From positions 7,316,001 to 7,380,000 of the forward strand of contig OZ017805.1 of the NCBI GenBank assembly GCA_963969395.1: a DNA stretch of 64,000 nt, in the 5' to 3' direction. Below the pieces are notes generated by a model that saw nothing but the letters and a program-made list of their open reading frames with translations, ran no database searches and was not told where the DNA came from. Position numbers and translations under genes: made by a program. Below are positions 3,318 through 22,669 of the stretch, one piece after another (position 1 is the first letter of the stretch; the number at the start of each line of letters is the position of its first letter). The stretch comes from Pseudoscleropodium purum (lineage: Eukaryota > Streptophyta > Bryopsida > Hypnales > Brachytheciaceae).

Positions 3318-3573
3318 TGTCGCAGCTTAAAATTTTGATTTTCTTAGTATGCACCAAAATAGGAACGGAAACTAGCCATTAGGGAACCGGATCCGATTAG
3401 GTGGAGAAGGAAAACTCAAAATTAGCACGGAACGTGAAGTAGTGGGCCTCTTGGATCTAATCCGGTCAGGAGTAACTAACGACGGAAACGGAATGCAACA
3501 CGGATTAGGTCTAGGACCGGATTATGATGGTGAATCGGATTCATGATGACCAAACCGGAAAGGGTCCAGAGAC

Positions 3574-3580
3574 TATATAA
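3574..3580 (+). promoter_or_regulatory. TATA box of older LTR
   Basis: TATATAA lies about 256 bp inside the LTR and about 170 bp before the broken LTR ORF at 3749. It matches in position the CTATAAAAG of the minus-strand LTRs. Confidence 0.55.
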
Positions 3581-3748
3581 GGAGGAGCCTTCACTGTTGC
3601 ACCCCCTTTTAGAAACTCGACCTTGAGCGCGCGCGGTTGCGTTTTCGCGTTTGTGTGCTGTAGGCTTTGATTCCGGTTGAGATCGGAGAGAGAGAACGTG
3701 AGGAACGGGACGTGCGGCTAGGAGAGAGTGACATAGATTGAAGGGGGA

Positions 3749-4303
3749 ATGCCGCCGCTACGTAGGTCTAGACCAGCGAGTCCCTCTAGAGGCGAGGTAA
3801 AGCTCCGGAAAGTCATTCCGGTTATTCCCTCCACAGAGCCGGAAAAGGCTGAACTCATGGATGATCTCAGATCCATGGGTTGCGTAGGGTTTGCCGAGAA
3901 ACCTTGGGGTTTTAGGGAGGAGAGAATGGTCAAGGAACTCCTCGGAAAACTGTCCAACCAGTTTGACAACACCATGAGAGGAACTCCCATCCGCTGGAAC
4001 GAGGGAATGTGGAGAGGTGTTTATGGTTTTCGGGCAGGAGGGTTAGGAATGGCAGACCGGAAGGATGAATTTGTCCGAGGCAAGTTCCAGGGGGCTGTCA
4101 ACCCGAAGGACGGATACGCGGTCGAGGATTGCGTGGATGACCGACACCGTCGGCTTCTGCAGTTCTTGGTTCCGGTCCTTCACCCGGAAAAGCCGACCCA
4201 AGGTGACGATCACCCTTGGCAACACCATTTTCGGTGCCCTAAGTGGTACCCGGAAAGTGGACTAGGCACGGATCATTTCCGATCTCGTGACCCAGCTCGT
4301 TAG
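3749..4303 (+). pseudogene. LTR-borne ORF, frameshifted and truncated
   Basis: This is homologous to the intact LTR ORF of LTR1-3: it opens MPPLRRSRPASP and carries the shared blocks RKVIPVIPSTEPEKAELMDD, SMGCVGFAEKPWGF and NPKDGYAVEDC. Near 4200 one extra base (GACCCAAGG where intact copies read GACCAGGG) shifts the frame, so the conserved VTITLG block is lost. The plus frame then runs into unrelated codons to 4303. The rest of the gene is removed by the array insertion at 4383. It cannot make the full protein. Confidence 0.85.
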
Positions 4304-4738
4304 TAGAGTTGGGAAGAAGAGGGCCAGTCCAGTGTGCCCTTACCTCTTCCACCTCTATCGGGAAAACCAAGTCCTCACCGACTGTCGCAGCACAGGGCAG
4401 GTCAATTCCCCATTATACTCACAAAAATCGCTCTAGAGTATAACTAAGTGACTCTAAAGATCGAACCCACGAGATCCTGTGAAGTATCTAGCTCTATTAA
4501 GCAGTTAAGCTCAGTCAGTATGCCAATCTTACTTTCCGGTCCTAGATCTAGAACCAGAAATACCACCACACCGGAAAACTATAGACCGGATTACTCCTTC
4601 TTCCGGTCCTACTAACTATCCGGTCCGTACAAATACCCAAATCCCAAGATCTCACAACTTCCGATCCTGGAAATCCGTCTTGACCAATCCGGTCGGAATG
4701 GTCATCCTGTACCCGTAATCCTATCCGGTTTGGTTTTG

Positions 4739-4759
4739 CCTCTGTTTCACCATCAGAGG
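4739..4759 (-). other. conserved LTR hairpin CCTCTG...CAGAGG (LTR1)
   Basis: On the minus strand CCTCTGATGGTGAAACAGAGG forms a 6-bp stem with a 9-nt loop. It lies outside the ORF and is also present in LTR2 (13955-13975), LTR3 (23173-23193) and, diverged, in the second LTR family (53205-53225 and 55429-55449). Conservation between families suggests an RNA-level role such as 3'-end formation, packaging or translation; which one is unknown. Confidence 0.5.
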
Positions 4760-5404
4760 GGTCGCCGCTTAATTTTGAGAGTGGTAGGCCCACCACTCCT
4801 TCCGTGACTTATAGTGGCTGAAGACCCACTGTCCTACCTTCTAGACTCCTAAGCTAATCCGGATCCGGTTTGGTCCTTCACAACAACCCAGATAGCAATC
4901 CGGGTCGTAGGTCACACAAAGACCCCACACTCGACCCTCTCGTACTACAACGACCTTGATGCTACTTCCGATCCGTGCGAAGACAAGTGGTTACAAGTGC
5001 ACCCGTCCGTTCCAACATCAACTAAAGTTCTTCCGTTACCCCTACGGGTGGTGAGACCTCACAGGAGATCGGACACTCGACCGGATTTCCCACCCGGGAG
5101 TTCTAGCGCAGCTAAGGAATCCCTCCCTACCCGCCTAGCCTAACAACGGCTTCCTCACCCGGAATCTCAAACTCTAGACGTGCTGAGGAACTAAGTTCAC
5201 TCCCAACTCTTCAGTACCTACTCACATGCACCTTGGATCGGAAAATAAACACCAAGGGGAGAAATCACTTACAAACCAACTCGTACTATCCTAACTCCAC
5301 ATCATACAATCCTGTCGCGCTGGAGAGAGATACACAACGAAGAGAATAGAAAGGTACAAGAAGTTTGCAAAATGAACAACTCCCAATTCCCATCTCAGGA
5401 ACCG

Positions 5405-5413
5405 ATTTATATA
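5405..5413 (-). promoter_or_regulatory. second LTR TATA box (TATA-2, LTR1)
   Basis: TATATAAAT on the minus strand lies about 150 bp downstream of the LTR ORF stop. The same site occurs at 14622-14630 and 23840-23848. In a 5' LTR it would start an RNA about 1.1 kb before gag, which would place the LTR ORF in U3. Function is inferred from sequence and position only. Confidence 0.45.
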
Positions 5414-5564
5414 CAAAGGGTCAAAACCCTAAAAGCACAAAAAGGAGCGGAAAACCCGTGGGGGTCCGCCGCCACCTAAATCTAACTTCCGGTCTAACCT
5501 AATACTGTTGAGCCGGATCCGGATCCGGATCCGCTCCTACTCCTAACTGAAATTCAAATCCTAT

Positions 5565-7223
5565 CTACCCTACAACTCTAGATCCTATCGTCGGGCTTCC
5601 GACCTCCGGGACTAGCTCCTCGAAGACTTCGCTCAAGTTCCGGACCCGTTCCCCCTCCTCAGGATTCGGTCCGGGTGGAGACTCCAAGTCGATGGTAATA
5701 TCCGGTCTCGATCTCGGAGTCCCAGTCCGTGCAGACTTCTTGGACTCAGGAGTCCAATCCTTCCTGTCCTTTGCCATAGTTGCATCCGGAAAGAGGTCCG
5801 GTAGAGAGATGTCCGAAAGGTGAATACTTTTGTCGCACGTCGCTCCCGTCAGCTTCCGGCTGCTCTCCTCGATCCGGTCCGCTGCCTTCCGCCCCTCCAC
5901 CATTGCCGTCTCCACCTGCTCGGCGAAGTCCGCGAGAATCCGGACCATCCGGGAACCGGATAGTTTCTTCTCTTCGTGGATCTTCTCGTCGAAGAGCTTC
6001 GCCTTGGCCGCTGCCGTTCCGGTCTCTCCCAGGACCGCCTTGATCTGCTCGGCCAGCTTCCGAGTCTCCTCCGCCATCTCCCGAGCGGCCGTCATGTCTT
6101 CCTGATAGGCGAAAAGTGTTGCCTTCAGTTTATCTACCTCCTCCTGCAACCGGCGGATCTCGGCTTCCTGCTTCCGGGTCTCTTCCGGATTCGTGATGCA
6201 TTGCGCCACTTGTTCCGCCAAGTTGCTGTCCGGTGCAGCACCCACCAACTTGCCGATTGCCGCAAGCGTCCTGTGCTTGACCTCCCAATCCGCCCTGATG
6301 TTGCAGAGGACGTTGATCAGACCGTTGAACGGATCTTGCATATCCGGATCTCCCCCGGAATTGGTCTTCTCGGCTTCCGGTTTCTCCTCCGGGGCCGGTT
6401 TGTCTTGACCGGGAGGCGTCCCGCGCTTGTGTGGAGGCGTCAGCTTCTGTCGCTTGATCGGCGGCATCGGCTCCTCCTCTTCCTCGCTGGACTCCCGGTC
6501 TGACTCGAAATCGGATTCCGCTTCGTCATCCGTCTCCGACTCCCCATACTTCAGGAGCACTTCCTGCGTCTTCCACGCCTTCTCCTCTATGTTGGTGAGG
6601 ACTTGGTTCTCCCGATAGAGGTGGAAGAGGTAAGGGCACACTAGAGTGGCCCTTTTCTTCCCAACCCTACTAACAAGCTGGGCCACGAGATCGGAAATGA
6701 TCCGTGCCCAGTCCACTTTCCGGGTACCACTGAGGGCACCGAAAATGGTGTTGCCGAGGGTGATCGTCACCCTGGTCGGCTTCTCCGGGTGAAGAACCGG
6801 AACCAGGAATTGCAGGAGCCGACGGTGTCGGTCGTCCAAGCAATCCTCGACCGCGTATCCGTCCTTCGGGTTGACGGCTCCCTTGAACTTCCCTCGGACA
6901 AACTCATCCTTCCGGCTCGCCATTCCCAAACCTCCTGCCCGGAAACCGTAAACCGCTCTCCACATCCCCTCGTTCCAGCTGACGGGAGCTCCCCTCACGG
7001 TGTTGTCAAACTGGTTGGACAACTTTCCGAGGAGCTCCTTGACCATTCTCTCCTCCCTAAAACCCCAAGGTTTCTCGGCAAACCCTACGCAACCCATGGA
7101 TCTGAGATCATCCATGAGTTCAGCCTTTTCCGGCTCTGTGGAGGGAATAACCGGAATGACTTTCCGGAGCTTCACCTCGCCTCCAGAGGGACTCGCTTGC
7201 CTCGACCTACGTAGCTGAGGCAT
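5565..7223 (-). CDS. LTR-borne protein of unknown function (LTR1 copy)
   Basis: This intact 552-codon ORF lies entirely inside the LTR, in gag-pol direction. I chose ATG 7223; an in-frame GTG at 7229 is less likely. Numbered from that GTG, residues 20-230 form a probable globular domain (blocks SMGCVGFAEKPWGF, NPKDGYAVEDC, VTITLGNTIFGAL, CPYLFHLY). Residues 230-254 are an acidic Glu/Asp/Ser run and 257-262 a basic PIKRQK that could be a nuclear signal. Residues 345-460 are a long charged coiled-coil-like segment, and the tail is low-complexity. There is no signal peptide, membrane segment or zinc knuckle. TATA-1 lies about 180 bp upstream. The N-terminal domain is recognisable in decayed form in a second LTR family at 50375 and 58300, so it is an old, maintained gene. 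I do not recognise the family; a structural, regulatory or silencing-related role would be speculation. Confidence 0.8.
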   Translation of the reverse strand: MPQLRRSRQASPSGGEVKLRKVIPVIPSTEPEKAELMDDLRSMGCVGFAEKPWGFREERMVKELLGKLSNQFDNTVRGAPVSWNEGMWRAVYGFRAGGLGMASRKDEFVRGKFKGAVNPKDGYAVEDCLDDRHRRLLQFLVPVLHPEKPTRVTITLGNTIFGALSGTRKVDWARIISDLVAQLVSRVGKKRATLVCPYLFHLYRENQVLTNIEEKAWKTQEVLLKYGESETDDEAESDFESDRESSEEEEEPMPPIKRQKLTPPHKRGTPPGQDKPAPEEKPEAEKTNSGGDPDMQDPFNGLINVLCNIRADWEVKHRTLAAIGKLVGAAPDSNLAEQVAQCITNPEETRKQEAEIRRLQEEVDKLKATLFAYQEDMTAAREMAEETRKLAEQIKAVLGETGTAAAKAKLFDEKIHEEKKLSGSRMVRILADFAEQVETAMVEGRKAADRIEESSRKLTGATCDKSIHLSDISLPDLFPDATMAKDRKDWTPESKKSARTGTPRSRPDITIDLESPPGPNPEEGERVRNLSEVFEELVPEVGSPTIGSRVVG

Positions 7224-7405
7224 TCCCACTCACATCTACCTCACTCTCTCCTAGCCGCACGTCCCGTTCCTCACTTTCTCTCTCCGATCTCAACCGGAAT
7301 CAAAATGAACAGAACGCAAACGCACAGACGCACAAACGACAAAAACTCAACCGCGCACGCTCAAGGTCGAGTTTCTAAAAGGGGGTGCAACAGTGAAAGC
7401 TCCTC

Positions 7406-7414
7406 CTTTTATAG
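7406..7414 (-). promoter_or_regulatory. first LTR TATA box (TATA-1, LTR1)
   Basis: CTATAAAAG on the minus strand lies 272 bp from the LTR 5' end and about 180 bp before the LTR ORF start. Equivalent sites are at 16623-16631 and 25841-25849. It is the likely promoter for the LTR ORF, and possibly for genomic RNA. Confidence 0.6.
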
Positions 7415-7686
7415 TCCCTGGACCCTTTCCGGTTTGTCATCATGAATCCGGGTTACCATCATAATCCGGTTCATCATCATCATCCGGTCCTAGACCTAAT
7501 CCGGGTTACATTCCGTTTCCGTCGTTAGTTACTCCTGACCGGATTAGATCCAAGAAGCCCACTACTTCACGTTCCGTGCTAATTTTGAGTTTTCCTTTCC
7601 CACCTAATCGGATCTGGTTAGCTAATGACTAGTTTCCGTTCCTATTTGGGTGTATACTAAGAAAATCAAAATTCTAAGCTGCGACA

Positions 7687-7699: not shown

Positions 7700-7722
7700 A
7701 TCTGTGAGCGTCCCCGCGAACA

Positions 7723-10700
7723 TCATTGACCTTCCGTCGAAGAAGTAGCCACCGAATACTTTTTCACCCTTGATCCGTTCACACGAGTGTCAAGCCACTG
7801 GCCCTGCAAATTCGCAAGTTGCAAAGACCCATTTTGAAAAATTTGAATGACTCGGAAAGGTCCCATCCATCGGGTATGCAATTTTCCTGGAAACTCTTTG
7901 TGACGGTTGTCATAAACGAGCACAAGACCGCCTTCCTGGATTCCATGATCAACTGGAAGTTTCCGGTCATAATCTTTCTTGCGTTTGAATTGCACTTCCA
8001 TGGTTCTCTCAAGAGCTGCAATTCGGGTTTCTTCCAGTTCTTCAATCGCGAGGAGTCGCGGAAGTATATCCATTCTGGTCTCCGCATTCCGGGCTGCCAT
8101 GACACGGAATGTCTCCACTTCTAACTCCACCCCATGAACTGTGTTTTGGCCGAAGACCAAAAAGTAGGGCGTTTTTCCGGTTGTGCTCTTCTCCGCCGTA
8201 TTGTACGCATGCACGGCCGAAGGTAGTTTCCGGTCCCAATCCGTCTTGTGAGCGGAAACCATCTTGTTCAAGATCTTCCCAATAATTCCGTTCGCCCGCT
8301 CGGTTAATCCATTCGCCTTTGGATTATAAGGAGTCGTCTTCCGGTGCTTAATAAGATATTTGGTAGTTAGGTCGGAGATGACGTCATTGAGGAAATGGGT
8401 TCCTCTATCACTGACCAACTCCAGTGGGTGGCCAAATCGCATGAGGATTTCTTCAAACAAAAAGGACGCGGAAGTCTCGGCATCGTTTTTCCGGGTTGCT
8501 CTGGCCTCCACCCACTTGGTCGCGTAATCCGTGGCTAGGATTATGTACCTCTTCTTCCTAGCACTGACCGGAAAAATGGGTCCAATAAAGTCGATCCCCC
8601 ATTTCTCAAACGGTGCTAAGGGAATTATGGGAGTGAGCGGCCAATGGTTCCGGAAAGATGGTGCTCCTGTCCGCTGACACTGATCGCAACTCCGAACAAA
8701 ATTCCTCACATCCCTGTGTACATACGGCCACCAGTATCCGGCGGATCGGATCCGGTTCACCGTAGTAACAAAGGCAAAATGTCCTCCGGAACTCCCGCAA
8801 TGGAGTGCCCGGATGACTTTCTTCCGGTCCGAAGGTTCCAAACATCGCCTAAGGACGTCGTCCGCCCCTAACTTGAAAAGGACTCCCCTAATCATGGTAT
8901 AAGGAGCCGCTTTTCTCTGAAAGATTTCTTTCTCCTCTAGACTCATCTGTTCCGGATATTTGGAATTCACTAAATAGCTAATGATATCCCGGAACTCCGA
9001 AACAGACTCGTTGCTTAGGTGAAAAACTTCTATCAAGGGAAAATCCGGTTTCTCCATTTCAACCGGAATCTCCAGAGAATCCGGAAACTCATCCGGAAAC
9101 TCAGCGGAAATATCCGCCACGGATTCCTGTCCTCTTTGTCTCGAGAGGTAATCCGCGTTCGAGTTTGCTTTTCCGGGTTTCACTACGACCTCGTAATTAA
9201 ACTCTTGTAAAAGCAAAATCCATCTAGCAATCCGACCTGACAAATCCGGTTTGTTCACGAGGTATTTCAAGGAATCATGATCTGTGTGAAAAATTACCTT
9301 GTACCCTAGCAAATAATGTCGGAACTTCTTACAAGAATACACGACCGCCAGAGCTTCTCGTTCTGTGGTGGTGTAATTCCGTTCCGCCAAACTCATTTGC
9401 CTGCTCGCATAGTAAATCGGATTCTCACGCTTCTCCGTGTCGAACTGCCAAAGAATGGATCCCAGACACCAACCGGATGCGTCGATGGTGACATGGAACT
9501 CTTTTGTCCAATCCGGAACGGAAAGGATCGGAGCTCTAGCAAGCTGAGTCTTCAGATCATCGAAGGCCTGCTGTCGCTTTCCGGTCCACACAAATTCCGT
9601 ATCCTGTTTGAGTAGTTCCGTGAGAGGGATGGCCCTCTTGGCGTATCCGTCAATGAATCGACGGTAGTAGCCCACACACCCTAGAAACCCACGGATCTCC
9701 CTTACGCTCGTCGGAGGCAGCAAGGATAGAACCGCCCTCACCTTTTCCAAGTCCGCTTGCAATCCGGCTTGGCTCACCACATGCCCCAGTAAAATTCCGG
9801 AACTCATTCCGAAAAAACACTTTCCGGGGTGTAATCTCAGATTGGTTTCTCGGCACCTTTGAAACGTCTTCCGCAAACATTCGAGATGAAGTTTCCGGTC
9901 GCTAAAAACTGCAAAGTCATCAATGAAGACCTCAATGAAATGGCGGAGAAAATCCTTGAAAATGTCCATCATCAGCCGTTGGAAAGTTCCGGGTGCGTTG
10001 CACAGGCCAAACGGCATCCGGGTAAATGCGAAAGTTCCCCATTCTGTCGTGAACGTGGTCTTCAGCTGATCCCTCCGTCGGATGAACACTTGGTTGTAAC
10101 CGGAAAATCCGTCCAAAAAGCTGTAACATTCGTGTCCGGCCACGTGGTCCAAAATGATGTCAGTAAATGGAAGGGGAAAGTAATCCTTCTTTGTGGCTGT
10201 GTTCAATTTCCGGAAATCTTGACACACCCGGATCTTAACTTTCCCATCCGTTCCCAACTTCTTGGGAACCACCACAATAGGGGAAACCCACTCGGAATTG
10301 TTGACCGGATATATGAATCCGGTTTCCAATAACCGGTCGATTTCTTCCTTCACCATTAACGAGTACCTCGGGTTGAGTCGGTACTGTCGCTGACGGACCG
10401 GAATAGATCCTTCCGTCAAGTCAATGTGATGCTCTCCTAAGTGAGGGGGGATTCCCTTCAGATCAGACGGCTCCCATGCAAAAATATCGAGATACTCCTG
10501 GACAAGTTGAACGTAACCGGATTTCTCCGTGCTTTGCATGAGCTTGCTCAAATAAAAGCACTTGCCTGGTTCAACCTCCTCCTGCTCATAATCGATGGGC
10601 GAGACGATTGGTTTGATCTTCTCTTCGTGAACCTCTTCCGGAACGGAAACTAAATTTCCCCATTCGGGTCTCATCGTTTCCTCACTTACACCCGCGGGAA

Positions 10701-11832
10701 GGTTTCCATCCTGGATCTGTCGAGTGATCCACTCGGCTGTGAGCGGAACGCTTGACTCTCCTAACGATCGATCTTCCACCATGGTACTGCTAGGCTTTTC
10801 CGGATCATGCTCCAACACAGCATTAGAGAACCCAAAACTTTTCTCAGTTTTGTGTTCGAATGGATCCACATAATAGCTTGGAATCGACTCTTCCGAATCC
10901 GTCCAATCCGATGTGTAACCATCCGAGTCGCTGGTTTCTCCTAAATGCTTTTCCGTGGACCAAGGTATCCGGATGGAAGGTTTCCCGACCACCAGTTCCT
11001 TGTTTCCCCAATCCACCAGTACTTGGGCAGAGTATAACCAAGGTCTACCCAGTAGCATAGGAAAAGGTCTTCCTTTGTGCACACGGATGATGACATAGTT
11101 CAGCAGATAATCCGTTCCTCCAATCCGGGTTGGAACTTGCGAAAGTTTGCCAACCGGATGTACTCGGGATTGATCCGCCATACGAAGGACTTGATCCGTC
11201 GCTTCGATCGTGGTGAATCCTAACTCAAATGCCGTGTCTTCCAACATCAAGTTGACTCCAGATCCGCCATCGATGGGAACCTTTGGAATCAGGCATCCTT
11301 CTATCTCCACACCGATCTCTGGAGCCCCGGAATCTTCCGGTTGGGAGAAGTTAACTGCCACCGCTGGGAGTTTCACCCTCTTCTTCCGTTTCCGTGTCCA
11401 GCTATCTCGGATCAGCTTCTGGTACATCACGTTGTCGTGCAGGAGCTGTCCAATCGTAACATTCGCCCGTTGATCTCGGATGTCCTGGATGATGTCATAC
11501 TCATGAGTACGGATATCCGGATTGATAACCACTGGGGTGTTACTGAAACGAACCTGCTTCTTACTCGTCACCACATCCGGTCCAGAGATTTCCGTCCGAA
11601 TCTCTGAACTGATGTCGATCGGAATCCGGTTCCGGTCCACCCCTTCCTCAAAGTGAACTTCCTCCGGTTCTGGACTCCGTCTCTGAAAAACAGGATCAGA
11701 ATCACTACTCGATTTCTGCCTCCTCCTCTGCTTTTTCTTCTTTCCCCTTACAGCTCGTTCGGGTTGATTTCTGGTGGAACTGCGGGTCGATACCCGGTTT
11801 ACCAAGCTCTCCGTCTCCGCCGGCAGTTCCAC
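7723..11832 (-). CDS. pol: Pol polyprotein (PR-RT-RH-INT), copy A
   Basis: Makes element DNA from RNA and integrates it. Residue positions count from the GTG at 11832: aspartic protease with DGGSG at 188-192; reverse transcriptase about 480-680 with the catalytic box FIDD at 636-639; RNase H with D784, E824 and D851; integrase with an HHCC zinc finger (H1011, H1018, C1049, C1052) and a D1081-D1142-E1178 triad with the canonical 35-residue gap. A C-terminal GPFRVIQIF...VNGSRVKKY module (about 1324-1360) follows and there is no chromodomain. No proper ATG begins this ORF. It is in the same frame as gag, whose UGA stop lies at 11844-11842, so it is most simply made as a Gag-Pol fusion by UGA readthrough. 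All catalytic residues are present; length is normal for the family. Confidence 0.93.
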   Translation of the reverse strand: MELPAETESLVNRVSTRSSTRNQPERAVRGKKKKQRRRQKSSSDSDPVFQRRSPEPEEVHFEEGVDRNRIPIDISSEIRTEISGPDVVTSKKQVRFSNTPVVINPDIRTHEYDIIQDIRDQRANVTIGQLLHDNVMYQKLIRDSWTRKRKKRVKLPAVAVNFSQPEDSGAPEIGVEIEGCLIPKVPIDGGSGVNLMLEDTAFELGFTTIEATDQVLRMADQSRVHPVGKLSQVPTRIGGTDYLLNYVIIRVHKGRPFPMLLGRPWLYSAQVLVDWGNKELVVGKPSIRIPWSTEKHLGETSDSDGYTSDWTDSEESIPSYYVDPFEHKTEKSFGFSNAVLEHDPEKPSSTMVEDRSLGESSVPLTAEWITRQIQDGNLPAGVSEETMRPEWGNLVSVPEEVHEEKIKPIVSPIDYEQEEVEPGKCFYLSKLMQSTEKSGYVQLVQEYLDIFAWEPSDLKGIPPHLGEHHIDLTEGSIPVRQRQYRLNPRYSLMVKEEIDRLLETGFIYPVNNSEWVSPIVVVPKKLGTDGKVKIRVCQDFRKLNTATKKDYFPLPFTDIILDHVAGHECYSFLDGFSGYNQVFIRRRDQLKTTFTTEWGTFAFTRMPFGLCNAPGTFQRLMMDIFKDFLRHFIEVFIDDFAVFSDRKLHLECLRKTFQRCRETNLRLHPGKCFFGMSSGILLGHVVSQAGLQADLEKVRAVLSLLPPTSVREIRGFLGCVGYYRRFIDGYAKRAIPLTELLKQDTEFVWTGKRQQAFDDLKTQLARAPILSVPDWTKEFHVTIDASGWCLGSILWQFDTEKRENPIYYASRQMSLAERNYTTTEREALAVVYSCKKFRHYLLGYKVIFHTDHDSLKYLVNKPDLSGRIARWILLLQEFNYEVVVKPGKANSNADYLSRQRGQESVADISAEFPDEFPDSLEIPVEMEKPDFPLIEVFHLSNESVSEFRDIISYLVNSKYPEQMSLEEKEIFQRKAAPYTMIRGVLFKLGADDVLRRCLEPSDRKKVIRALHCGSSGGHFAFVTTVNRIRSAGYWWPYVHRDVRNFVRSCDQCQRTGAPSFRNHWPLTPIIPLAPFEKWGIDFIGPIFPVSARKKRYIILATDYATKWVEARATRKNDAETSASFLFEEILMRFGHPLELVSDRGTHFLNDVISDLTTKYLIKHRKTTPYNPKANGLTERANGIIGKILNKMVSAHKTDWDRKLPSAVHAYNTAEKSTTGKTPYFLVFGQNTVHGVELEVETFRVMAARNAETRMDILPRLLAIEELEETRIAALERTMEVQFKRKKDYDRKLPVDHGIQEGGLVLVYDNRHKEFPGKLHTRWMGPFRVIQIFQNGSLQLANLQGQWLDTRVNGSRVKKYSVATSSTEGQ

Positions 11833-11850
11833 CTCGCATCGTCACTTGTC
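11833..11850 (-). promoter_or_regulatory. gag-pol junction with in-frame UGA (copy A)
   Basis: The minus strand reads GAC AAG TGA CGA TGC GAG, then the pol frame goes on without another stop for 1369 codons. A UGA followed by C is a known leaky stop context in plant and animal RNA viruses. The same junction is kept in copy B (21059-21061). A +1-frame ATG overlaps (ATGCGAGG) but does not enter pol. Confidence 0.65.
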
Positions 11851-13452
11851 CGGATTCTCCGTTCCGGCTGAGTGGCCATAGTTGAGCGCGGTCTGCTCCC
11901 TTGGAAGAATTTGAACTTGTTTGTAAACCGGTCTTGGCTGTATGGGCTTCAAACACTGCTCCTCCTGATGCCCATACTCTTGGCAATTCTGGCACGGAAG
12001 AGTGCGAGGAGCACCCTGCCCTGGTCCCCTGTTAGGACACGAGTTGGCATAATGTCCCGGTTCTCCACAGCCATAACAAATCACCACTTGTCTATCCGGG
12101 TAACCAAGGGCTCGCACGGGCTGCTGCATTACCAACCCCTGACTCGGTCCCGGTAAAAAGTTCCGGTTCAACATGTTGGACCGGGAAGGAATCGTGATCC
12201 CTTTTCCTCTACCATAGGTCGGCTGCACTTGGTAGATCTCCTCCTCTTCCTCGTTTGCTACGGTGTAGTAGATCTCTTCTTCCGGATACACATAGTGAAC
12301 TTGCTTCTGGGCAGCTCGCTGGCATTCACTTGGATAGTGACCCGGTTCTCCACATCTTCCGCACCAGACATTGGATCGAGAAGTCGGAACGATCCGTCTC
12401 GGTTTCCGGTTCTCAGCCATGTTGACCTTGATAGCCTCCAAAGACTCTTGGATGCTCTTCATCATCTTCTTGGAATCCGTATCTTCCATCTTCACTTTCA
12501 CAACCCGTTTCTCTCTCTGACCCTTCGGCTTGTGCGAACGTCGGGGAGGTGAAACACTCTGTTCCTCATCTGAGCTCGATGAATCCGGATCGGAAACTTC
12601 CGTTCCAGAACTCTCGGAACTGCTGTCCGAATCGGAAACCTTCTTACGATGCTTCAACTTCCGGTCGCCTTTCTTGTTCTTCCCCTTTTCTTGCTTCTCG
12701 CTCCTTCTCAAGGACTTCCGGAGTGACTGAGCGGAATTCTCGTAATTAGCCGCAGCATCCATGGCGTCTCTAAGTGTCCTAGGCCGCGTCTGACGAATCA
12801 GAAATCCCATAGACTCGGGTAATCCGGCAACATACCACTCCACCTGCAGACTAGGAGCGATCTCCGTGGTCAGCTTCTGGATCAGCGCCTTCACCCTCTG
12901 GCCATACTTCCGCACGGATTCGGATGATTTCATCGTTAGTGTACTGAGCCGTCCCAAGGCTCTGGCTTCTCCTCCTACCTCCCGGAAAGCTTGCAGGAAA
13001 TCCGTTCTCAACTGATCCCAGTTATTCCGGATGGGATCGGAAATATCCTGGTACCATTTAAGAGCTTCTCCCTTGAGCAATCCTTGGAAAATTCTTCGCT
13101 GGGCCGCCTCATTTTCCTGGTTGGCGAGTGCAGTAGATTCAAACTCGCATAGCCAGTCATCCGCATCTTGGCTTCCATCACCCTTAAAACGCTTGTATCT
13201 CAATCGAGTCATGACGTCTTCGTCCTCGAGGAACGGATCTTCTCTGTCCGGTTCCGGATCTAGATCGGAAACTGAAGGCGTATGACCAGATCTCGGATTC
13301 TCGCTTTCTCCTGCGGATGCAGACACGAAAATCGGACGGTTAACCGGATCTTGCAGATCCGGTTCACTCTGATCCGGTTCAGGCGATTCTTTCGATCGTT
13401 CTCTTCTTCTCAATCGCTCGGACGCTCTCGTATTCCTTATTCCGCATCTCAT
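11842..13452 (-). CDS. gag: Gag (capsid/nucleocapsid), copy A
   Basis: 536 residues, starting at ATG 13452, about 117 nt after the primer site. Residues 1-80 are charged and probably disordered. Residues 80-245 match the retrotransposon Gag capsid domain (RYKRFKGDGSQDADDWLCEF; GLLKGEALKWYQDI; F..LT..ESV..Y..R...L). Residues 250-320 are a basic then Ser/Asp-rich linker. Three CCHC zinc knuckles follow at 364-377, 459-472 and 487-500 (CxxCxxxGHxxxxC); plant Gags usually have one or two, so three is slightly unusual. It forms the virus-like particle and binds element RNA. The ORF ends AAG-TGA and the pol frame continues directly. It differs from the copy B Gag at five residues. Confidence 0.92.
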   Translation of the reverse strand: MRCGIRNTRASERLRRRERSKESPEPDQSEPDLQDPVNRPIFVSASAGESENPRSGHTPSVSDLDPEPDREDPFLEDEDVMTRLRYKRFKGDGSQDADDWLCEFESTALANQENEAAQRRIFQGLLKGEALKWYQDISDPIRNNWDQLRTDFLQAFREVGGEARALGRLSTLTMKSSESVRKYGQRVKALIQKLTTEIAPSLQVEWYVAGLPESMGFLIRQTRPRTLRDAMDAAANYENSAQSLRKSLRRSEKQEKGKNKKGDRKLKHRKKVSDSDSSSESSGTEVSDPDSSSSDEEQSVSPPRRSHKPKGQREKRVVKVKMEDTDSKKMMKSIQESLEAIKVNMAENRKPRRIVPTSRSNVWCGRCGEPGHYPSECQRAAQKQVHYVYPEEEIYYTVANEEEEEIYQVQPTYGRGKGITIPSRSNMLNRNFLPGPSQGLVMQQPVRALGYPDRQVVICYGCGEPGHYANSCPNRGPGQGAPRTLPCQNCQEYGHQEEQCLKPIQPRPVYKQVQILPREQTALNYGHSAGTENPDK

Positions 13453-13568: not shown

Positions 13569-13587
13569 ATCCCCGGCAGCGGCGCCA
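13569..13587 (-). other. primer-binding site, tRNA-Asp type, copy A
   Basis: The minus strand reads TGGCGCCGCTGCCGGGGAT, 11 nt inside the 5' LTR (LTR2). From memory it matches the 3' end of plant tRNA-Asp (GUC) with one change (GCTGCC for GTTGCC), the primer used by Athila/Tat-type elements. Confidence 0.8.
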
Positions 13588-13598
13588 GATTTTTGTCA

Positions 13599-16500
13599 TG
13601 TCGCAGCACAGGGCAGGTCAATTCCCCATTATACTCACAAAAATCGCTCTAGAGTATAACTAAGTGACTCTAAAGATCGAACCCACGAGATCCTGTGAAG
13701 TATCTAGCTCTATTAAGCAGTTAAGCTCAGTCAGTATGCCAATCTTACTTTCCGGTCCTAGATCTAGAACCAGAAATACTACCACACCGGGTAACTACAG
13801 ACCGGATTACTCCTTCTTCCGGTCCTACTAACTATCCGGTCCGTACAAACACCCAAATCCCAGGATCTCACAACTTCCGATCTTGGAAATCCGTCCTGAC
13901 CAATCCGGTCGGGATGGTCATCCTGTACTCGTAATCCTATCCGGTTTGGTTTTGCCTCTGTTTCACCATCAGAGGGGTCGCCGCTTAATTTTGAGAGTGG
14001 TAGGCCCACCACTCCTTCCGTGACTTATAGTGGCTGAAGACCCACTGTCCTACCTTCTAGACTCCTAAGCTAATCCGGATCCGGTTTGGTCCTTCACAAC
14101 AACCCAGATAGCAATCCGGGTCGTAGGTCACACAAAGACCCCACACTCGACCCTCTCGTACTACAACGACCTTGATGCTACTTCCGATCCGTGCGAAGAC
14201 AGGTGGTTACAAGTGCACCCGTCCGTTCCAACATCAACTAAAGTTCTTCCGTTACCCCTACGGGTGGTGAGACCTCACAGGAGATCGGACACTCGACCGG
14301 ATTTCCCACCCCGGGAGTTCTAGCGCAGCTAAGGAATCCCTCCCTACCCGCCTAGCCTAACAACGGCTTTCTCACCCGGAATCTCAAACTCTAGACGTGC
14401 TGAGGAACTAAGTTCACTCCCAACTTTTCGGTACCTACTCACATGCACCTTGGATCGGAAAATAAACACCAAGGGGAGAATTCACTTGCCAACCAACTCG
14501 TACTATCCTAACTCCACATCATACAATCCTGTCGCGCTGGAGAGAGATACACAACGAAGAGAATAGAAAGGTACAAGAAGTTTGCAAAATGAACAACTCC
14601 CAATTCCCATCTCAGGAACCGATTTATATACAAAGGGTCAAAACCCTAAAAGCACAAAAAGGAGCGGAAAACCCGTGGGGGTCCGCCGCCACCTAAATCT
14701 AACTTCCGGTCTAACCTAATACTATTGAGCCGGATCCGGATCCGGATCCGCTCCTACTCCTAACTGAAATTCAAATCCTATCTACCCTACAACTCTAGAT
14801 CCTATCGTCGGGCTTCCGGTCTCCGGGACTAGCTCCTCGAAAACTTCACTCAAATTCCGGACCCGTTCCCCCTCCGCAGGATTCGGTCCGGGTGGAGACT
14901 CCAGGTCGATGGTGATATCCGGTCTCGTGCCCGGAGTCCCAGTCCGTGCAGACTTCTTGGACTCAGGAGTCCAATCCTTCCTGTCCTTCGCCATAGTTGC
15001 ATCCGGAAAGAGGTCCAGTAGTGAGATGTCCGAAAGGTGAATACCTTTGTCGCACGTCGCTCCCGTCAGCTTCCGGCTGCTCTCCTCGATCCGGTCCGCT
15101 GCCTTCCGCCCTTCTACCATTGCCGTCTCCACCTGCTCGGCGAAGTCCGCGAGAATCCGGACCATCCGGGAACCGGATAGTTTCTTCTCTTCGTGGATCT
15201 TCTCGTCGAAGAGCTTCGCCTTGGCCGCTGCCGTTCCGGTCTCTCCCAGGACCGCCTTGATCTGCTCGGCCAGCTTCCGAGTCTCCTCCGCCATCTCCCG
15301 AGCGGCCGTCACGTCTTCCTGATAGGCAAAAAGTGTTGCCTTCAGTTTATCTACCTCCTCCTGCAACCGGCGGATCTCGGCTTCCTGCTTCCGGGTCTCT
15401 TCCGGATTCGTGATGCATTGCGCCACTTGTTCCGCCAAGTTGCTGTCCGGTGCAGCACCCACCAACTTGCCGATTGCCGCAAGCGTCCTGTGCTTGACCT
15501 CCCAATCCGCCCTGATGTTGCAGAGGACGTTGATCAGACCGTTGAACGGATCTTGCATATCCGGATCTCCCCCGGAATTGGTCTTCTCGGCTTCCGGTTT
15601 CTCCTCCGGGGCCGGTTTGTCTTGACCGGGAGGCGTCCCGCGCTTGTGTGGAGGCGTCAGCTTCTGTCGCTTGATCGGCGGCATCGGCTCCTCCTCTTCC
15701 TCGCTGGACTCCCGGTCTGACTCGAAATCGGATTCCGCTTCGTCATCCGTCTCCGACTCCCCATACTTCAGGAGCACTTCCTGCGTCTTCCACGCCTTCT
15801 CCTCTATGTTGGTGAGGACTTGGTTCTCCCGATAGAGGTGGAAGAGGTAAGGGCACACTAGAGTGGCCCTTTTCTTCCCAACCCTACTAACAAGCTGGGC
15901 CACGAGATCGGAAATGATCCGTGCCCAGTCCACTTTCCGGGTACCACTGAGGGCACCGAAAATGGTGTTGCCGAGGGTGATCGTCACCCTGGTCGGCTTC
16001 TCCGGGTGAAGAACCGGAACCAGGAATTGCAGGAGCCGACGGTGTCGGTCGTCCAAGCAATCCTCGACCGCGTATCCGTCCTTCGGGTTGACGGCTCCCT
16101 TGAACTTCCCTCGGACAAACTCATCCTTCCGGCTCGCCATTCCCAAACCTCCTGCCCGGAAACCGTAAACCGCTCTCCACATCCCCTCGTTCCAGCTGAC
16201 GGGAGCTCCCCTCACGGTGTTGTCAAACTGGTTGGACAACTTTCCGAGGAGCTCCTTGACCATTCTCTCCTCCCTAAAACCCCAAGGTTTCTCGGCAAAC
16301 CCTACGCAACCCATGGATCTGAGATCATCCATGAGTTCAGCCTTTTCCGGCTCTGTGGAGGGAATAACCGGAATGACTTTCCGGAGCTTCACCTCGCCTC
16401 CAGAGGGACTCGCTTGCCTCGACCTACGTAGCTGAGGCATTCCCACTCACATCTACCTCACTCTCTCCTAGCCGCACGTCCCGTTCCTCACTTTCTCTCT

Positions 16501-16903
16501 CCGATCTCAACCGGAATCAAAATGAACAGAACGCAAACGCACAGACGCACAAACGACAAAAACTCAACCGCGCACGCTCAAGGTCGAGTTTCTAAAAGGG
16601 GGTGCAACAGTGAAAGCTCCTCCTTTTATAGTCCCTGGACCCTTTCCGGTTTGTCATCATGAATCCGGGTTACCATCATAATCCGGTTCATCATCATCAT
16701 CCGGTCCTAGACCTAATCCGGGTTACATTCCGTTTCCGTCGTTAGTTACTCCTGACCGGATTAGATCCAAGAAGCCCACTACTTCACGTTCCGTGCTAAT
16801 TTTGAGTTTTCCTTCCCCACCTAATCGGATCCGATTAGCTAATGACTAGTTTCCGTTCCTATTTGGGTGTATACTAAGAAAATCAAAATTCTAAGCTGCG
16901 ACA
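13599..16903 (-). repeat. LTR2 (middle LTR, shared by copies A and B)
   Basis: It is 3305 bp with the same TG...CA ends, ORF and regulatory sites as LTR1 (TATA-1 at 16623-16631, TATA-2 at 14622-14630, hairpin at 13955-13975). Over most of its length it shares variants with LTR3 against LTR1 (for example AATTCACTTGCC against AAATCACTTACA). At 13775-13930, however, it has about ten private substitutions where LTR1 and LTR3 are identical, which suggests a gene-conversion patch. Confidence 0.92.
14782..16440 (-). CDS. LTR-borne protein of unknown function (LTR2 copy)
   Basis: Intact, same length and domain layout as the LTR1 copy. It differs from LTR1 at seven residues, all in the C-terminal coiled-coil and tail region (V379, G468, L477, G506, T507, A524 and T543, numbered from the upstream GTG). 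The N-terminal domain is identical in the two. Two changes are private to this copy: SLLDLF for SLPDLF, and PETGS for PEVGS. Because it lies in the middle LTR, it follows pol of copy B and precedes gag of copy A. Function unknown, as for LTR1. Confidence 0.8.
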   Translation of the reverse strand: MPQLRRSRQASPSGGEVKLRKVIPVIPSTEPEKAELMDDLRSMGCVGFAEKPWGFREERMVKELLGKLSNQFDNTVRGAPVSWNEGMWRAVYGFRAGGLGMASRKDEFVRGKFKGAVNPKDGYAVEDCLDDRHRRLLQFLVPVLHPEKPTRVTITLGNTIFGALSGTRKVDWARIISDLVAQLVSRVGKKRATLVCPYLFHLYRENQVLTNIEEKAWKTQEVLLKYGESETDDEAESDFESDRESSEEEEEPMPPIKRQKLTPPHKRGTPPGQDKPAPEEKPEAEKTNSGGDPDMQDPFNGLINVLCNIRADWEVKHRTLAAIGKLVGAAPDSNLAEQVAQCITNPEETRKQEAEIRRLQEEVDKLKATLFAYQEDVTAAREMAEETRKLAEQIKAVLGETGTAAAKAKLFDEKIHEEKKLSGSRMVRILADFAEQVETAMVEGRKAADRIEESSRKLTGATCDKGIHLSDISLLDLFPDATMAKDRKDWTPESKKSARTGTPGTRPDITIDLESPPGPNPAEGERVRNLSEVFEELVPETGSPTIGSRVVG

Positions 16904-16916
16904 TTACCCCTTCCTC
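16904..16916 (-). other. polypurine tract, copy B
   Basis: Same GAGGAAGGGGTAA abutting LTR2, 24 nt after the pol stop at 16940. Confidence 0.8.
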
Positions 16917-16939
16917 ATCTGTGAGCGTCCCCGCGAACA

Positions 16940-19900
16940 TCATTGACCTTCAGTCGAAGAAGTAGCCACCGAATACTTTTTCACCCTTGATCCGTTCACA
17001 CGAGTGTCAAGCCACTGGCCCTGCAAATTCGCAAGTTGCAAAGACCCATTTTGAAAAATTTGAATGACTCGGAAAGGTCCCATCCATCGGGTATGCAATT
17101 TTCCTGGAAACTCTTTGTGACGGTTGTCATAAACGAGCACAAGACCGCCTTCCTGGATTCCATGATCAACTGGAAGTTTCCGGTCATAATCTTTCTTGCG
17201 TTTGAATTGCACTTCCATGGTTCTCTCAAGAGCTGCAATCCGGGTTTCTTCCAGTTCTTCAATCGCGAGGAGTCGCGGAAGTATATCCATTCTGGTCTCC
17301 GCATTCCGGGCTGCCATGACACGGAATGTCTCCACTTCTAACTCCACCCCATGAACTGTGTTTTGGCCGAAGACCAAAAAGTAGGGCGTTTTTCCGGTTG
17401 TGCTCTTCTCCGCCGTATTGTACGCATGCACGGCCGAAGGTAGTTTCCGGTCCCAATCCGTCTTGTGAGCGGAAACCATCTTGTTCAAGATCTTCCCAAT
17501 AATTCCGTTCGCCCGCTCGGTTAATCCATTCGCCTTTGGATTATAAGGAGTCGTCTTCCGGTGCTTAATAAGATATTTGGTAGTTAGGTCGGAGATGACG
17601 TCATTGAGGAAATGGGTTCCTCTATCACTGACCAACTCCAGTGGGTGGCCAAATCGCATGAGGATTTCTTCAAACAAAAAGGACGCGGAAGTCTCGGCAT
17701 CGTTTTTCCGGGTTGCTCTGGCCTCCACCCACTTGGTCGCGTAATCCGTGGCTAGGATTATGTACCTCTTCTTCCTAGCACTGACCGGAAAAATGGGTCC
17801 AATAAAGTCGATCCCCCATTTCTCAAACGGTGCTAAGGGAATTATGGGAGTGAGCGGCCAATGGTTCCGGAAAGATGGTGCTCCTGTCCGCTGACACTGA
17901 TCGCAACTCCGAACAAAATTCCTCACATCCCTGTGTACATACGGCCACCAGTATCCGGCGGATCGGATCCGGTTCACCGTAGTAACAAAGGCAAAATGTC
18001 CTCCGGAACTCCCGCAATGGAGTGCCCGGATGACTTTCTTCCGGTCCGAAGGTTCCAAACATCGCCTAAGGACGTCGTCCGCCCCTAACTTGAAAAGGAC
18101 TCCCCTAATCATGGTATAAGGAGCCGCTTTTCTCTGAAAGATTTCTTTCTCCTCTAGACTCATCTGTTCCGGATATTTGGAATTCACTAAATAGCTAATG
18201 ATATCCCGGAACTCCGAAACAGACTCGTTGCTTAGGTGAAAAACTTCTATCAAGGGAAAATCCGGTTTCTCCATTTCAACCGGAATCTCCAGAGAATCCG
18301 GAAACTCATCCGGAAACTCAGCGGAAATATCCGCCACGGATTCCTGTCCTCTTTGTCTCGAGAGGTAATCCGCGTTCGAGTTTGCTTTTCCGGGTTTCAC
18401 TACGACCTCGTAATTAAACTCTTGTAAAAGCAAAATCCATCTAGCAATCCGACCTGACAAATCCGGTTTGTTCACGAGGTATTTCAAGGAATCATGATCT
18501 GTGTGAAAAATTACCTTGTACCCTAGCAAATAATGTCGGAACTTCTTACAAGAATACACGACCGCCAGAGCTTCTCGTTCTGTGGTGGTGTAATTCCGTT
18601 CCGCCAAACTCATTTGCCTGCTCGCATAGTAAATCGGATTCTCACGCTTCTCCGTGTCGAACTGCCAAAGAATGGATCCCAGACACCAACCGGATGCGTC
18701 GATGGTGACATGGAACTCTTTTGTCCAATCCGGAACGGAAAGGATCGGAGCTCTAGCAAGCTGAGTCTTCAGATCATCGAAGGCCTGCTGTCGCTTTCCG
18801 GTCCACACAAATTCCGTATCCTGTTTGAGTAGTTCCGTGAGAGGGATGGCCCTCTTGGCGTATCCGTCAATGAATCGACGGTAGTAGCCCACACACCCTA
18901 GAAACCCACGGATCTCCCTTACGCTCGTCGGAGGCAGCAAGGATAGAACCGCCCTCACCTTTTCCAAGTCCGCTTGCAATCCGGCTTGGCTCACCACATG
19001 CCCCAGTAAAATTCCGGAACTCATTCCGAAAAAACACTTTCCGGGGTGTAATCTCAGATTGGTTTCTCGGCACCTTTGAAACGTCTTCCGCAAACATTCG
19101 AGATGAAGTTTCCGGTCGCTAAAAACTGCAAAGTCATCAATGAAGACCTCAATGAAATGGCGGAGAAAATCCTTGAAAATGTCCATCATCAGCCGTTGGA
19201 AAGTTCCGGGTGCGTTGCACAGGCCAAACGGCATCCGGGTAAATGCGAAAGTTCCCCATTCTGTCGTGAACGTGGTCTTCAGCTGATCCCTCCGTCGGAT
19301 GAACACTTGGTTGTAACTGGAAAATCCGTCCAAAAAGCTGTAACATTCGTGTCCGGCCACGTGGTCCAAAATGATGTCAGTAAATGGAAGGGGAAAGTAA
19401 TCCTTCTTTGTGGCTGTGTTCAATTTCCGGAAATCTTGACACACCCGGATCTTAACTTTCCCATCCGTTCCCAACTTCTTGGGAACCACCACAATAGGGG
19501 AAACCCACTCGGAATTGTTGACCGGATATATGAATCCGGTTTCCAATAACCGGTCGATTTCTTCCTTCACCATTAACGAGTACCTCGGGTTGAGTCGGTA
19601 CTGTCGCTGACGGACCGGAATAGATCCTTCCGTCAAGTCAATGTGATGCTCTCCTAAGTGAGGGGGGATTCCCTTCAGATCAGACGGCTCCCATGCAAAA
19701 ATATCGAGATACTCCTGGACAAGTTGAACGTAACCGGATTTCTCCGTGCTTTGCATGAGCTTGCTCAAATAAAAGCACTTGCCTGGTTCAACCTCCTCCT
19801 GCTCATAATCGATGGGCGAGACGATTGGTTTGATCTTCTCTTCGTGAACCTCTTCCGGAACGGAAACTAAATTTCCCCATTCCGGTCTCATCGTTTCCTC

Positions 19901-21058: not shown

Positions 21059-22669
21059 TCACTTGTCCGGATTCTCCGTTCCGGCTGAGTGGCCATAGTT
21101 GAGCGCGGTCTGCTCCCTTGGAAGAATTTGAACTTGTTTGTAAACCGGTCTTGGCTGTATGGGCTTCAAACACTGCTCCTCCTGATGCCCATACTCTTGG
21201 CAATTCTGGCACGGAAGAGTGCGAGGAGCACCCTGCCCTGGTCCCCTGTTAGGACACGAGTTGGCATAATGTCCCGGTTCTCCACAGCCATAACAAATCA
21301 CCACTTGTCTATCCGGGTAACCAAGGGCTCGCACGGGCTGCTGCATTACCAACCCCTGACTCGGTCCCGGTAAAAAGTTCCGGTTCAACATGTTGGACCG
21401 GGAAGGAATCGTGATCCCTTTTCCTCTACCATAGGTCGGCTGCACTTGGTAGATCTCCTCCTCTTCCTCGTTTGCTATGGTGTAGTAGATCTCTTCTTCC
21501 GGATACACATAGTGAACTTGCTTCTGGGCAGCTCGCTGGCATTCACTTGGATAGTGACCCGGTTCTCCACATCTTCCGCACCAGACATTGGATCGAGAAG
21601 TCGGAACGATCCGTCTCGGTTTCCGGTTCTCAGCCATGTTGACCTTGATAGCCTCCAAAGACTCTTGGATGCTCTTCATCATCTTCTTGGAATCCGTATC
21701 TTCCATCTTCACTTTCACAACCCGTTTCTCTCTCTGACCCTTCGGCTTGTGCGAACGTCGGGGAGGTGAAACACTCTGTTCATCATCCGAGCTCGATGAA
21801 TCCGGATCGGAAACTTCCGTTCCAGAACTCTCGGAACTGCTGTCCGAATCGGAAACCTTCTTACGATGCTTCAACTTCCGGTCGCCTTTCTTGTTCTTCC
21901 CCTTTTCTTGCTTCTCGCTCCTTCTCAAGGACTTCCGGAGTGACTGAGCGGAATTCTCGTAATTAGCCGCAGCATCCATGGCATCTCTAAGTGTCCTAGG
22001 CCGCGTCTGACGAATCAGAAATCCCATCGACTCGGGTAATCCGGCAACGTACCACTCCACCTGCAGACTAGGAGCAATCTCCGTGGTCAGCTTCTGGATC
22101 AGCGCCTTCACCCTCTGGCCATACTTCCGCACGGATTCGGATGATTTCATCGTTAGTGTACTGAGCCGTCCCAAGGCTCTGGCTTCTCCTCCTACCTCCC
22201 GGAAAGCTTGCAGGAAATCCGTTCTCAACTGATCCCAGTTATTCCGGATGGGATCGGAAATATCCTGGTACCATTTAAGAGCTTCTCCCTTGAGCAATCC
22301 TTGGAAAATTCTTCGCTGGGCCGCCTCATTTTCCTGGTTGGCGAGTGCAGTGGATTCAAACTCGCACAGCCAGTCATCCGCATCTTGGCTTCCATCACCC
22401 TTAAAACGCTTGTATCTCAATCGAGTCATGACGTCTTCGTCCTCGAGGAACGGATCTTCTCTGTCCGGTTCCGGATCTAGATCGGAAACTGAAGGCGTAT
22501 GACCAGATCTCGGATTCTCGCTTTCTCCTGCGGATGCAGACACGAAAATCGGACGGTTAACCGGATCTTGCAGATCCGGTTCACTCTGATCCGGTTCAGG
22601 CGATTCTTTCGATCGTTCTCTTCTTCTCAATCGCTCGGACGTTCTCGTATTCCTTGTTCCGCTTCTCAT
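21059..22669 (-). CDS. gag: Gag, copy B
   Basis: 536 residues; capsid domain and three CCHC knuckles as in copy A. Differences from copy A: C3S, I5T, A10T, one E-to-D in the acidic linker (SSSDDEQS) and V398I. It starts at ATG 22669, about 117 nt after the primer site, and ends AAG-TGA with pol following in the same frame. Likely the particle-forming protein of this element and fully intact. Confidence 0.92.
   Translation of the reverse strand: MRSGTRNTRTSERLRRRERSKESPEPDQSEPDLQDPVNRPIFVSASAGESENPRSGHTPSVSDLDPEPDREDPFLEDEDVMTRLRYKRFKGDGSQDADDWLCEFESTALANQENEAAQRRIFQGLLKGEALKWYQDISDPIRNNWDQLRTDFLQAFREVGGEARALGRLSTLTMKSSESVRKYGQRVKALIQKLTTEIAPSLQVEWYVAGLPESMGFLIRQTRPRTLRDAMDAAANYENSAQSLRKSLRRSEKQEKGKNKKGDRKLKHRKKVSDSDSSSESSGTEVSDPDSSSSDDEQSVSPPRRSHKPKGQREKRVVKVKMEDTDSKKMMKSIQESLEAIKVNMAENRKPRRIVPTSRSNVWCGRCGEPGHYPSECQRAAQKQVHYVYPEEEIYYTIANEEEEEIYQVQPTYGRGKGITIPSRSNMLNRNFLPGPSQGLVMQQPVRALGYPDRQVVICYGCGEPGHYANSCPNRGPGQGAPRTLPCQNCQEYGHQEEQCLKPIQPRPVYKQVQILPREQTALNYGHSAGTENPDK

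Follow-up and report, generated by a model that had tools for sequence, protein, structure and literature searches.

The long terminal repeats (LTRs) of a Ty3/gypsy retrotransposon in Pseudoscleropodium purum almost certainly contain a protein-coding gene that was under selection, as judged from the sequence of a 64-kb stretch of contig OZ017805.1 (positions 7,316,001 to 7,380,000 of the forward strand; called the window, in whose numbering all coordinates are given). We also lean towards a wider account in which this is a selected LTR-borne accessory gene whose nuclear product may recognise a motif and thereby counter silencing. The minus strand of the window carries two tandem gag-pol units with their middle LTR in common, and each of the three full-length LTRs encloses an intact open reading frame (ORF; 3 of 3), which lies wholly within the LTR (positions 464-2122 of 3305) and in sense to gag-pol.

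4383..7686, minus strand: LTR1, 3304 bp, the 3' LTR of unit 1, delimited by self-alignment and by its TGTCGCAGC/GCTGCGACA ends
13599..16903, minus strand: LTR2, 3305 bp, common to both gag-pol units
22817..26121, minus strand: LTR3, 3305 bp, the 5' LTR of unit 2
5565..7223, minus strand: ORF copy 1, 552 codons, intact, in LTR1
14782..16440, minus strand: ORF copy 2, 552 codons, intact, in LTR2
24000..25658, minus strand: ORF copy 3, 552 codons, intact, in LTR3

The three LTRs, all with the termini TGTCGCAGC...GCTGCGACA, are 98.8, 98.8 and 99.1% identical in pairwise comparison; between the two internal regions, identity reaches 99.6%. An initial annotation had reported an intact ORF of ~550 codons in each 3.3 kb LTR, in the gag-pol direction and at 5565..7223 in the first copy; with 552 codons in all three LTRs the description is accurate, and the position stands with the correction that the ORF is placed on the minus strand. 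When LTR2 was shuffled 1000 times with dinucleotides preserved, the 554 codons of the stop-to-stop frame were never reached (maximum 544, mean 165), and the longest frame obtained when the ORF region was shuffled alone (n=1000) had 368 codons. Taken by itself, this length is suggestive of coding. The G+C content of the ORF at codon positions 1/2/3 is 0.62/0.43/0.70, the value at the third position comparing with 0.55 in gag and 0.54 in pol.

Selection on the encoded protein is indicated by an older, partial copy of the LTR.

3318..4382, plus strand: older LTR piece, 89% identical, covering LTR positions 1 to about 1100

This piece retains a decayed ORF that starts at 3749; its frame shifts near codon 151, and codon 172 is a stop. 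Comparison with LTR2 over 211 ORF codons reveals 31 synonymous and 18 non-synonymous changes, which corresponds to a ratio of non-synonymous to synonymous substitution rates (dN/dS) of 0.158 with the stop of the older piece counted as a non-synonymous change; the numbers are 31 and 18 against LTR1 and 32 and 18 against LTR3 (dN/dS 0.15-0.16). The differences are distributed over codon positions 1/2/3 as 12/8/29. Random placement of the same number of changes in 5000 trials yielded a mean of 34.6 non-synonymous changes, and 18 or fewer were seen in 0 of 5000. Since the older piece is itself broken, selection operated either while this copy was still intact or in the lineage that remained active.

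Homologues of the ORF were further found in two decayed repeats elsewhere in the window.

49921..~53453, plus strand: repeat A, a decayed LTR-like copy of ~3.5 kb from a related family
58754..~55201, minus strand: repeat B, a second decayed copy, 82% identical to A
50375..52333, plus strand: decayed ORF homologue in repeat A, with several stops, comprising the N-terminal (N) domain, the coil, a GSRMV-like block and the C-terminal (C) tail
57594..58298, minus strand: decayed N-domain homologue in repeat B

Repeats A and B form an inverted pair, each beginning with TGT(G/A)GGAGC. A tblastn search of the window with the ORF product aligned it to repeat A at 50414-51040 on the plus strand (38% of 210 amino acids, E 1e-41) and to repeat B at 58211-57624 on the minus strand (37% of 197 amino acids, E 7e-40); the coil region of repeat A is homologous as well (30% of 89 amino acids, E 1e-5), and the frame of A, with stops, extends to 52333 and ends in an acidic tail that appears similar by eye. 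The ORF starts at LTR position 464 in the main family and at 455 in A, and the aligned ATG of B is also found at 455, followed by a shift of the frame. In the N domain, the main ORF shows 81/68/140 differences from A at codon positions 1/2/3 (186 codons compared) and 83/67/144 from B (190 codons); relative to A the third positions are saturated (75% differ), as compared with 44% of the first and 37% of the second. A blastn search at low stringency with LTR2 as query aligned a single stretch of 63 columns in A and B, and because this stretch lies outside the ORF, the similarity of the ORF between the families is one of protein and not of DNA. Comparison of A with B yielded dN/dS values of 0.55 (N domain, 192 codons), 0.31 (tail, 61 codons) and 0.20 (a 52-codon block), as expected of copies decaying after their split. 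Judging by the TGT start, the length and the ORF, we read A and B as putative solo-LTR-like copies of another family; if they are LTRs, the gene probably predates the split of the two LTR families.

The 63-column stretch, around CCTCTGATGG...CAGAGG, occupies LTR2 positions 2887-2949 and lies ~250 nt before the ends of A and B. In the main LTR its fold is a simple hairpin, in A and B a different one.

Taken together, the changes in the older piece, the shuffles and the codon-position pattern against A and B led us to reject a chance ORF. The proposal of the initial annotation that a gene is maintained within the LTR is supported mostly by the older piece (dN/dS 0.16) and by the homologues in A and B at the same place of the LTR-like repeat; the argument from which it had been derived, namely the invariance of the N-terminal part among the three young LTRs, is weak. 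It is correct that the proteins do not differ in residues 1-230: amino-acid-changing codons number 13 among the three copies, the earliest being codon 239. The 29 variable ORF sites, however, include 3 in the first 230 codons, all of them silent, and 26 beyond, so that the contrast (Fisher p 0.0004) is one at the DNA level, and LTR positions 184-1056, coding and non-coding, show zero differences among the three LTRs. As silent differences are nearly absent there too, the missing N-terminal differences in three ~99% identical LTRs carry little information, and constraint deduced from the young LTRs alone was dropped.

The predicted protein consists of a basic N tail, an N domain of ~200 residues, an acidic run at 231-252 (net -12), a basic, nuclear-signal-like patch (KRQKL...HKR) at 257-267, a coil-like segment at 346-450 and a C tail. 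This agrees with the initial annotation as to the acidic run and the basic patch; its coiled coil is suggestive only, because the 3.5-residue hydrophobic period, highest in residues 351-400 (6.2), is also high in 281-330 (5.5) and 21-70 (4.8). A profile search of the N domain for a known family, which had been suggested as a check, gave no match in PDB at E up to 5, and the N domain and its relatives gave nothing better than 0.05 in Pfam. The Pfam models of Athila ORF1, plant mobile domain and Transposase_28, compared at sequence-level sensitivity only, did not match the ORF (E up to 1), and they matched neither the N domain (E up to 10) nor a six-member set including A and B (E up to 5). A suspected likeness of the N domain to the plant-transposon family PF20167 found no confirmation in Pfam, and an origin of the N domain as a duplicate of the element's own gag was rejected at an hhalign probability of 0.1%, on a thin profile (Neff, the effective number of sequences, 1.7). 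Relatives of the ORF were sought in viral contigs, where no pattern match was found, and in genome contigs, where 0 of 11 pattern matches were confirmed; for pol, 0 of 2 pattern matches in viral contigs were confirmed. Whether the product acts as a nuclear regulatory protein we regard, from its predicted layout, as evenly balanced.

TATA-like boxes are present on both sides of the ORF.

7407..7413, minus strand: TATA box TATAAAA, 190 nt ahead of the ORF start (LTR position 274), mapped from LTR2
5405..5413, minus strand: second TATA-like box TATATAAAT at LTR position 2274, between the ORF and the LTR end, mapped from LTR2

The probability of a chance TATAWAW in the 463-nt stretch upstream of the ORF is about 5%. 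Its counterparts are TATATAA in the older piece and TATTTAA in A and B, the pattern for A and B being looser and carrying no chance estimate. The second box, about 150 nt after the ORF, is weak and occurs in 14.6% of shuffles. We read the LTR as a probable self-contained transcription unit in which the first TATA box would drive the ORF mRNA, with gag-pol RNA originating in the 5' LTR from the same promoter, from the second one downstream, or by splicing. Nine upstream ATGs between the ORF and gag make plain scanning from either promoter to gag awkward; we would favour the second promoter or splicing. Placed in the repeat, the gene would be duplicated to both ends of the element by reverse transcription, and recombination to a solo LTR would still leave it whole. 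Its product would most likely work in the nucleus and in trans, regulating the element or protecting it from silencing, perhaps by binding an 8-bp motif, AWCCGGAW, that is scattered along the whole element.

One 9217-bp unit (7687-16903) contains 133 CCGG, compared with a mean of 47.5 and a maximum of 66 in shuffles, whereas 31.8 kb of control sequence from the window contain 7 versus 12.2 expected, the control being A+T-rich (G+C 0.34 vs 0.51). The pentamer CCGGA/TCCGG is in excess over dinucleotide shuffles in the ORF (34 vs 7.6), in gag (23 vs 5.1), in pol (56 vs 11.5) and in the two non-coding LTR parts (7 vs 1.3, equal to the shuffle maximum, and 18 vs 3.2), that is, about fivefold and at about 14-20 per kb throughout. 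In the gap between gag and pol it occurs 6 times vs 1.7 (3.6 times; equal to the shuffle maximum) and in the 146-nt leader once vs 0.2 expected; no excess was found in the rest of the window. The pentamer counts also exceed all of 500 synonymous-codon shuffles in pol (56 vs 17.7, maximum 34), gag (23 vs 11.7, maximum 20) and the ORF (34 vs 17.2, maximum 29); plain CCGG tops all such shuffles in pol and gag and does not do so in the ORF (32, maximum 33). The pol sites are spread over the three frames (14/15/17). Information is limited to AWCCGGAW (positions -2 to +5), the flanks being no more alike than random (0.256 vs 0.254), and the LTR additionally contains the motif core as a tandem array of 18 bp.

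Among 6-mers with 7 or more occurrences, words of the motif also rank first in both decayed repeats (repeat A: TCCGGA 7 vs 0.6 and ATCCGG 11 vs 1.3; repeat B: ATCCGG 8 vs 1.1). By region, the excess in A is clear in the 3' part (10 vs 1.3), at the edge in the ORF (10 vs 2.9, maximum 10) and within shuffles in the 5' part (1 vs 0.4). Where a CCGG is present in just one of A and B, 17 of 20 counterpart forms differ solely by C-to-T or G-to-A. Between the old and the new LTR, 11 of 14 CCGG (79%) are retained; with 69-78% for other 4-mers, conservation of individual sites is not supported. Among the matches listed in the open-licence literature, no title pertinent to the AWCCGGAW motif was found. 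A link between the LTR protein and the motif, proposed from sequence, is doubtful in our estimation.

VANDALs are Mutator-like DNA transposons. Their VANC anti-silencing proteins in Arabidopsis would be, to the extent of the available text of the source, the closest precedent for pairing a protein of the element with a short motif of its own. They are proteins associated with short element-specific motifs, often in tandem, those of VANC21 being non-coding (PMC5735166). An accessory protein and a strongly enriched short motif are common to both systems, and the 18-bp tandem array is reminiscent of the VANDAL arrangement as described there; unlike in that description, the motifs of the present element fill its coding parts equally densely, and the link between protein and motif is putative.

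Several observations weigh against the account of a selected nuclear gene with an anti-silencing function. The LTR protein has no significant match in the libraries searched (best E 0.021 in Pfam, 0.04 in NCBIfam and 0.22 in PDB), the best E of any library being 0.0056 for a PHROGs profile of a phage tail-fibre chaperone over the coil, and the two AlphaFold2 models, with predicted local distance difference test (pLDDT) scores of 38.6 and 39.3, are too poor for a fold search. The basic patch at 257-267 is the single feature that points to the nucleus. The ORF is broken in 3 of 3 older copies of the window (the older piece, A and B), a broken ORF being the expected state of old copies, and pairwise comparison of its three young copies gives dN/dS values of 0.24, 0.28 and 0.46, on 15-24 changes, as compared with 0.20 for gag (12 changes) and 0.15 for pol (6 changes). 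Repeats A and B have no gag or pol similarity nearby and no internal region (tblastn, window), nor is a target duplication or a distinct 3' end discernible. In the regions of repeat B the motif stays within shuffles (0 vs 0.48; 4 vs 1.13, maximum 5). The motif further shows a sense-strand bias, with 64 CCGGA-only against 27 TCCGG-only sites among 133 (p 0.0015), which fits a role at the RNA level at least as well, and what ties it to the ORF product is their co-occurrence.

It is quite conceivable, if short of an even bet, that the motif is unconnected with the LTR protein and either serves a host factor as its recognition site or results from mutational or conversion bias, given that a single intact family is at hand and that CCGG sites are hardly better kept than others (11/14, 79% vs 69-78%); the lack of an excess in the 31.8 kb control (7 vs 12.2; A+T-rich) makes the motif element-specific here, however, and the sharply bounded 8-bp logo with its dissimilar flanks is unlike the duplication of longer units.

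That the LTR protein instead serves structurally or at the RNA level in the cytoplasm or the particle, as a Gag-like protein, an RNA chaperone or a packaging factor, with the motif as a packaging or Gag-binding RNA signal, appears unlikely to us. The sense bias (64 vs 27) and the presence of the motif in coding and non-coding parts, i.e. along the whole genomic RNA, would suit such a protein, as would the coiled-coil-like segment, which is apt for assembly; on the other hand, the N domain shows no detectable kinship with the element's Gag (hhalign probability 0.1%, thin profile with Neff 1.7), the basic patch and the acidic run look nuclear, and Gag already has CCHC knuckles.

Still less probable is a captured fragment of a host gene that rides in the LTR and is now decaying, its low dN/dS dating from selection before the capture. 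The third-position G+C (0.70 vs 0.55 in gag and 0.54 in pol) suggests a separate origin and all three older copies are broken, but the excess of 31 to 18 built up after any capture, since it separates LTR copies within one family, and because a second, diverged LTR-like family has the homologue in the corresponding place, a capture would predate the split. That there is no gene, the long frame being upheld by composition or by a DNA-level constraint on the LTR such as the dense CCGGA motif, is already disfavoured and hardly credible: the ORF is indeed dense in the motif (34 sites) and one LTR shuffle came within 10 codons of its length (544 vs 554), but the way differences fall on codon positions, in the old copy as well as in repeats A and B, and the 38% amino-acid identity where blastn cannot align the DNA, speak for a protein.

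The mouse mammary tumour virus (MMTV) gene sag is a U3 gene inside the LTR, in sense and with two copies per provirus. The LTR ORF resembles it in lying wholly within the LTR, in sense; MMTV is a vertebrate retrovirus with unrelated host biology, and the LTR ORF has TATA-like boxes on both sides. Among the matches listed, the literature on ORFs in LTRs deals largely with vertebrate retroviruses, often MMTV. The initial annotation had called the placement comparable only to vertebrate retroviruses, which goes too far: in the available extracts on CRM group A centromeric retrotransposons, also plant Ty3/gypsy elements with coding sequence in an LTR, the polyprotein extends into the 3' LTR (PMC3059260). 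In the present element, unlike in CRM as described there, pol ends at 7723 and LTR1 begins at 7686, and the LTR ORF is separate, with its own ATG.

Extra ORFs of plant Ty3/gypsy elements (aORF/eORF) mostly follow pol, ahead of the 3' LTR, or else precede gag according to the available portions of two papers, as the initial annotation had said, and include Athila ORF1, the Ogre plant mobile domain ORF, the Retand Transposase_28 ORF, Grande gene23 and PvRetro13 ORF2, with a nuclear location reported for the Grande ORF and an SMC-type domain for that of PvRetro13 (PMC7264820, PMC6317226). Like these, as far as they are described, the LTR ORF is long, divergent, function-unassigned and placed beside gag-pol, and its 552 codons compare with the at least 250 that define plant extra ORFs; they are internal and in sense or antisense, whereas it is wholly in the LTR, in sense and in two copies per element. 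Because the survey in PMC6317226, by its available text, sorted eORFs as up- or downstream of the polyprotein, LTR-borne ones may have been counted without mention. ORF0 of the rice elements Retrosat2/RIRE3/RIRE8, compared by description only and from a partial text, resembles the LTR ORF in being an additional sense ORF that precedes gag-pol, in elements whose LTRs measure about 3 kb or more; it differs in that this text puts it upstream of the gag-pol ORF and does not assign it to the LTR (PMC3485330). Among the matches listed in the open-licence literature, mostly titles, none named a plant element whose LTR encloses a whole ORF, which does not prove that none is in print.

The remaining features of the element and of its surroundings are as follows.

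7723..11427, minus strand: pol of unit 1 (reverse transcriptase, RNase H, integrase), with the frame open to 11841
11842..13452, minus strand: gag of unit 1 (Retrotrans_gag, CCHC knuckles)
16940..20644, minus strand: pol of unit 2
21059..22669, minus strand: gag of unit 2
13571..13587, minus strand: primer binding site TGGCGCCGCTGCCGGGG, 11 nt after the LTR, located from the sequence; presumably that of tRNA-Asp
16904..16917, minus strand: polypurine tract TGAGGAAGGGGTAA, before LTR2
26122..26306, plus strand: LTR end, the last ~185 bp, 99% identical to the young LTRs

The TG..CA ends of the LTRs, the primer binding site, the polypurine tract, the CCHC gag and the order reverse transcriptase-RNase H-integrase place the element in Ty3/gypsy (Metaviridae). 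The chromodomain that characterises chromoviruses is absent from the Pfam matches of pol, and Pfam resolves a single RNase H region, with no dedicated model applied for the second RNase H of the Tat lineage (aRH). In both units the gag TGA (11842 and 21059, minus strand) is followed by CGA with pol open in-frame at once, an arrangement that suggests read-through of a single stop. Among the 56 variable LTR positions, 10 are changes specific to LTR2 at 13780-13929 (LTR2 positions 2975-3124), where LTR1 and LTR3 agree; this mosaic suggests conversion or recombination. The pieces at 3318-4382 and 26122-26306 are bracketed by a 5-bp duplication, GCTAG (3313-3317 and 26307-26311), from which the tandem block appears to be nested in another LTR of the same family in opposite orientation. 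This outer LTR lacks about 2 kb, and its pieces differ in age (89% vs 99% identity); the whole arrangement spans 3313-26311, and the tandem block has no target duplication of its own. Outside the element, an ORF at 28859-29875 on the plus strand matches DUF4218 (E 8e-19), which we take to be a domain of CACTA-type transposons, and a 137-bp unit is repeated in tandem in 2.7 copies at 62032-62397.

LTRs are usually regarded as regulatory, non-coding DNA. With a selected gene in the LTR, each element has the gene twice, a solo LTR could preserve it after the element itself is gone, and annotation centred on gag-pol would overlook the transcript plan. In the furthest form of the account, which we consider rather unlikely, gene and motif would make up one selfish system: each LTR, even a solo one, would be a gene for a sequence-specific protein that coats CCGGA-marked element DNA over its full length, including coding parts, against silencing, the density of the motif being kept despite its codon cost in gag and pol. 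If the dispersed motif is indeed the target, the element would represent a retrotransposon anti-silencing system that marks coding DNA too.

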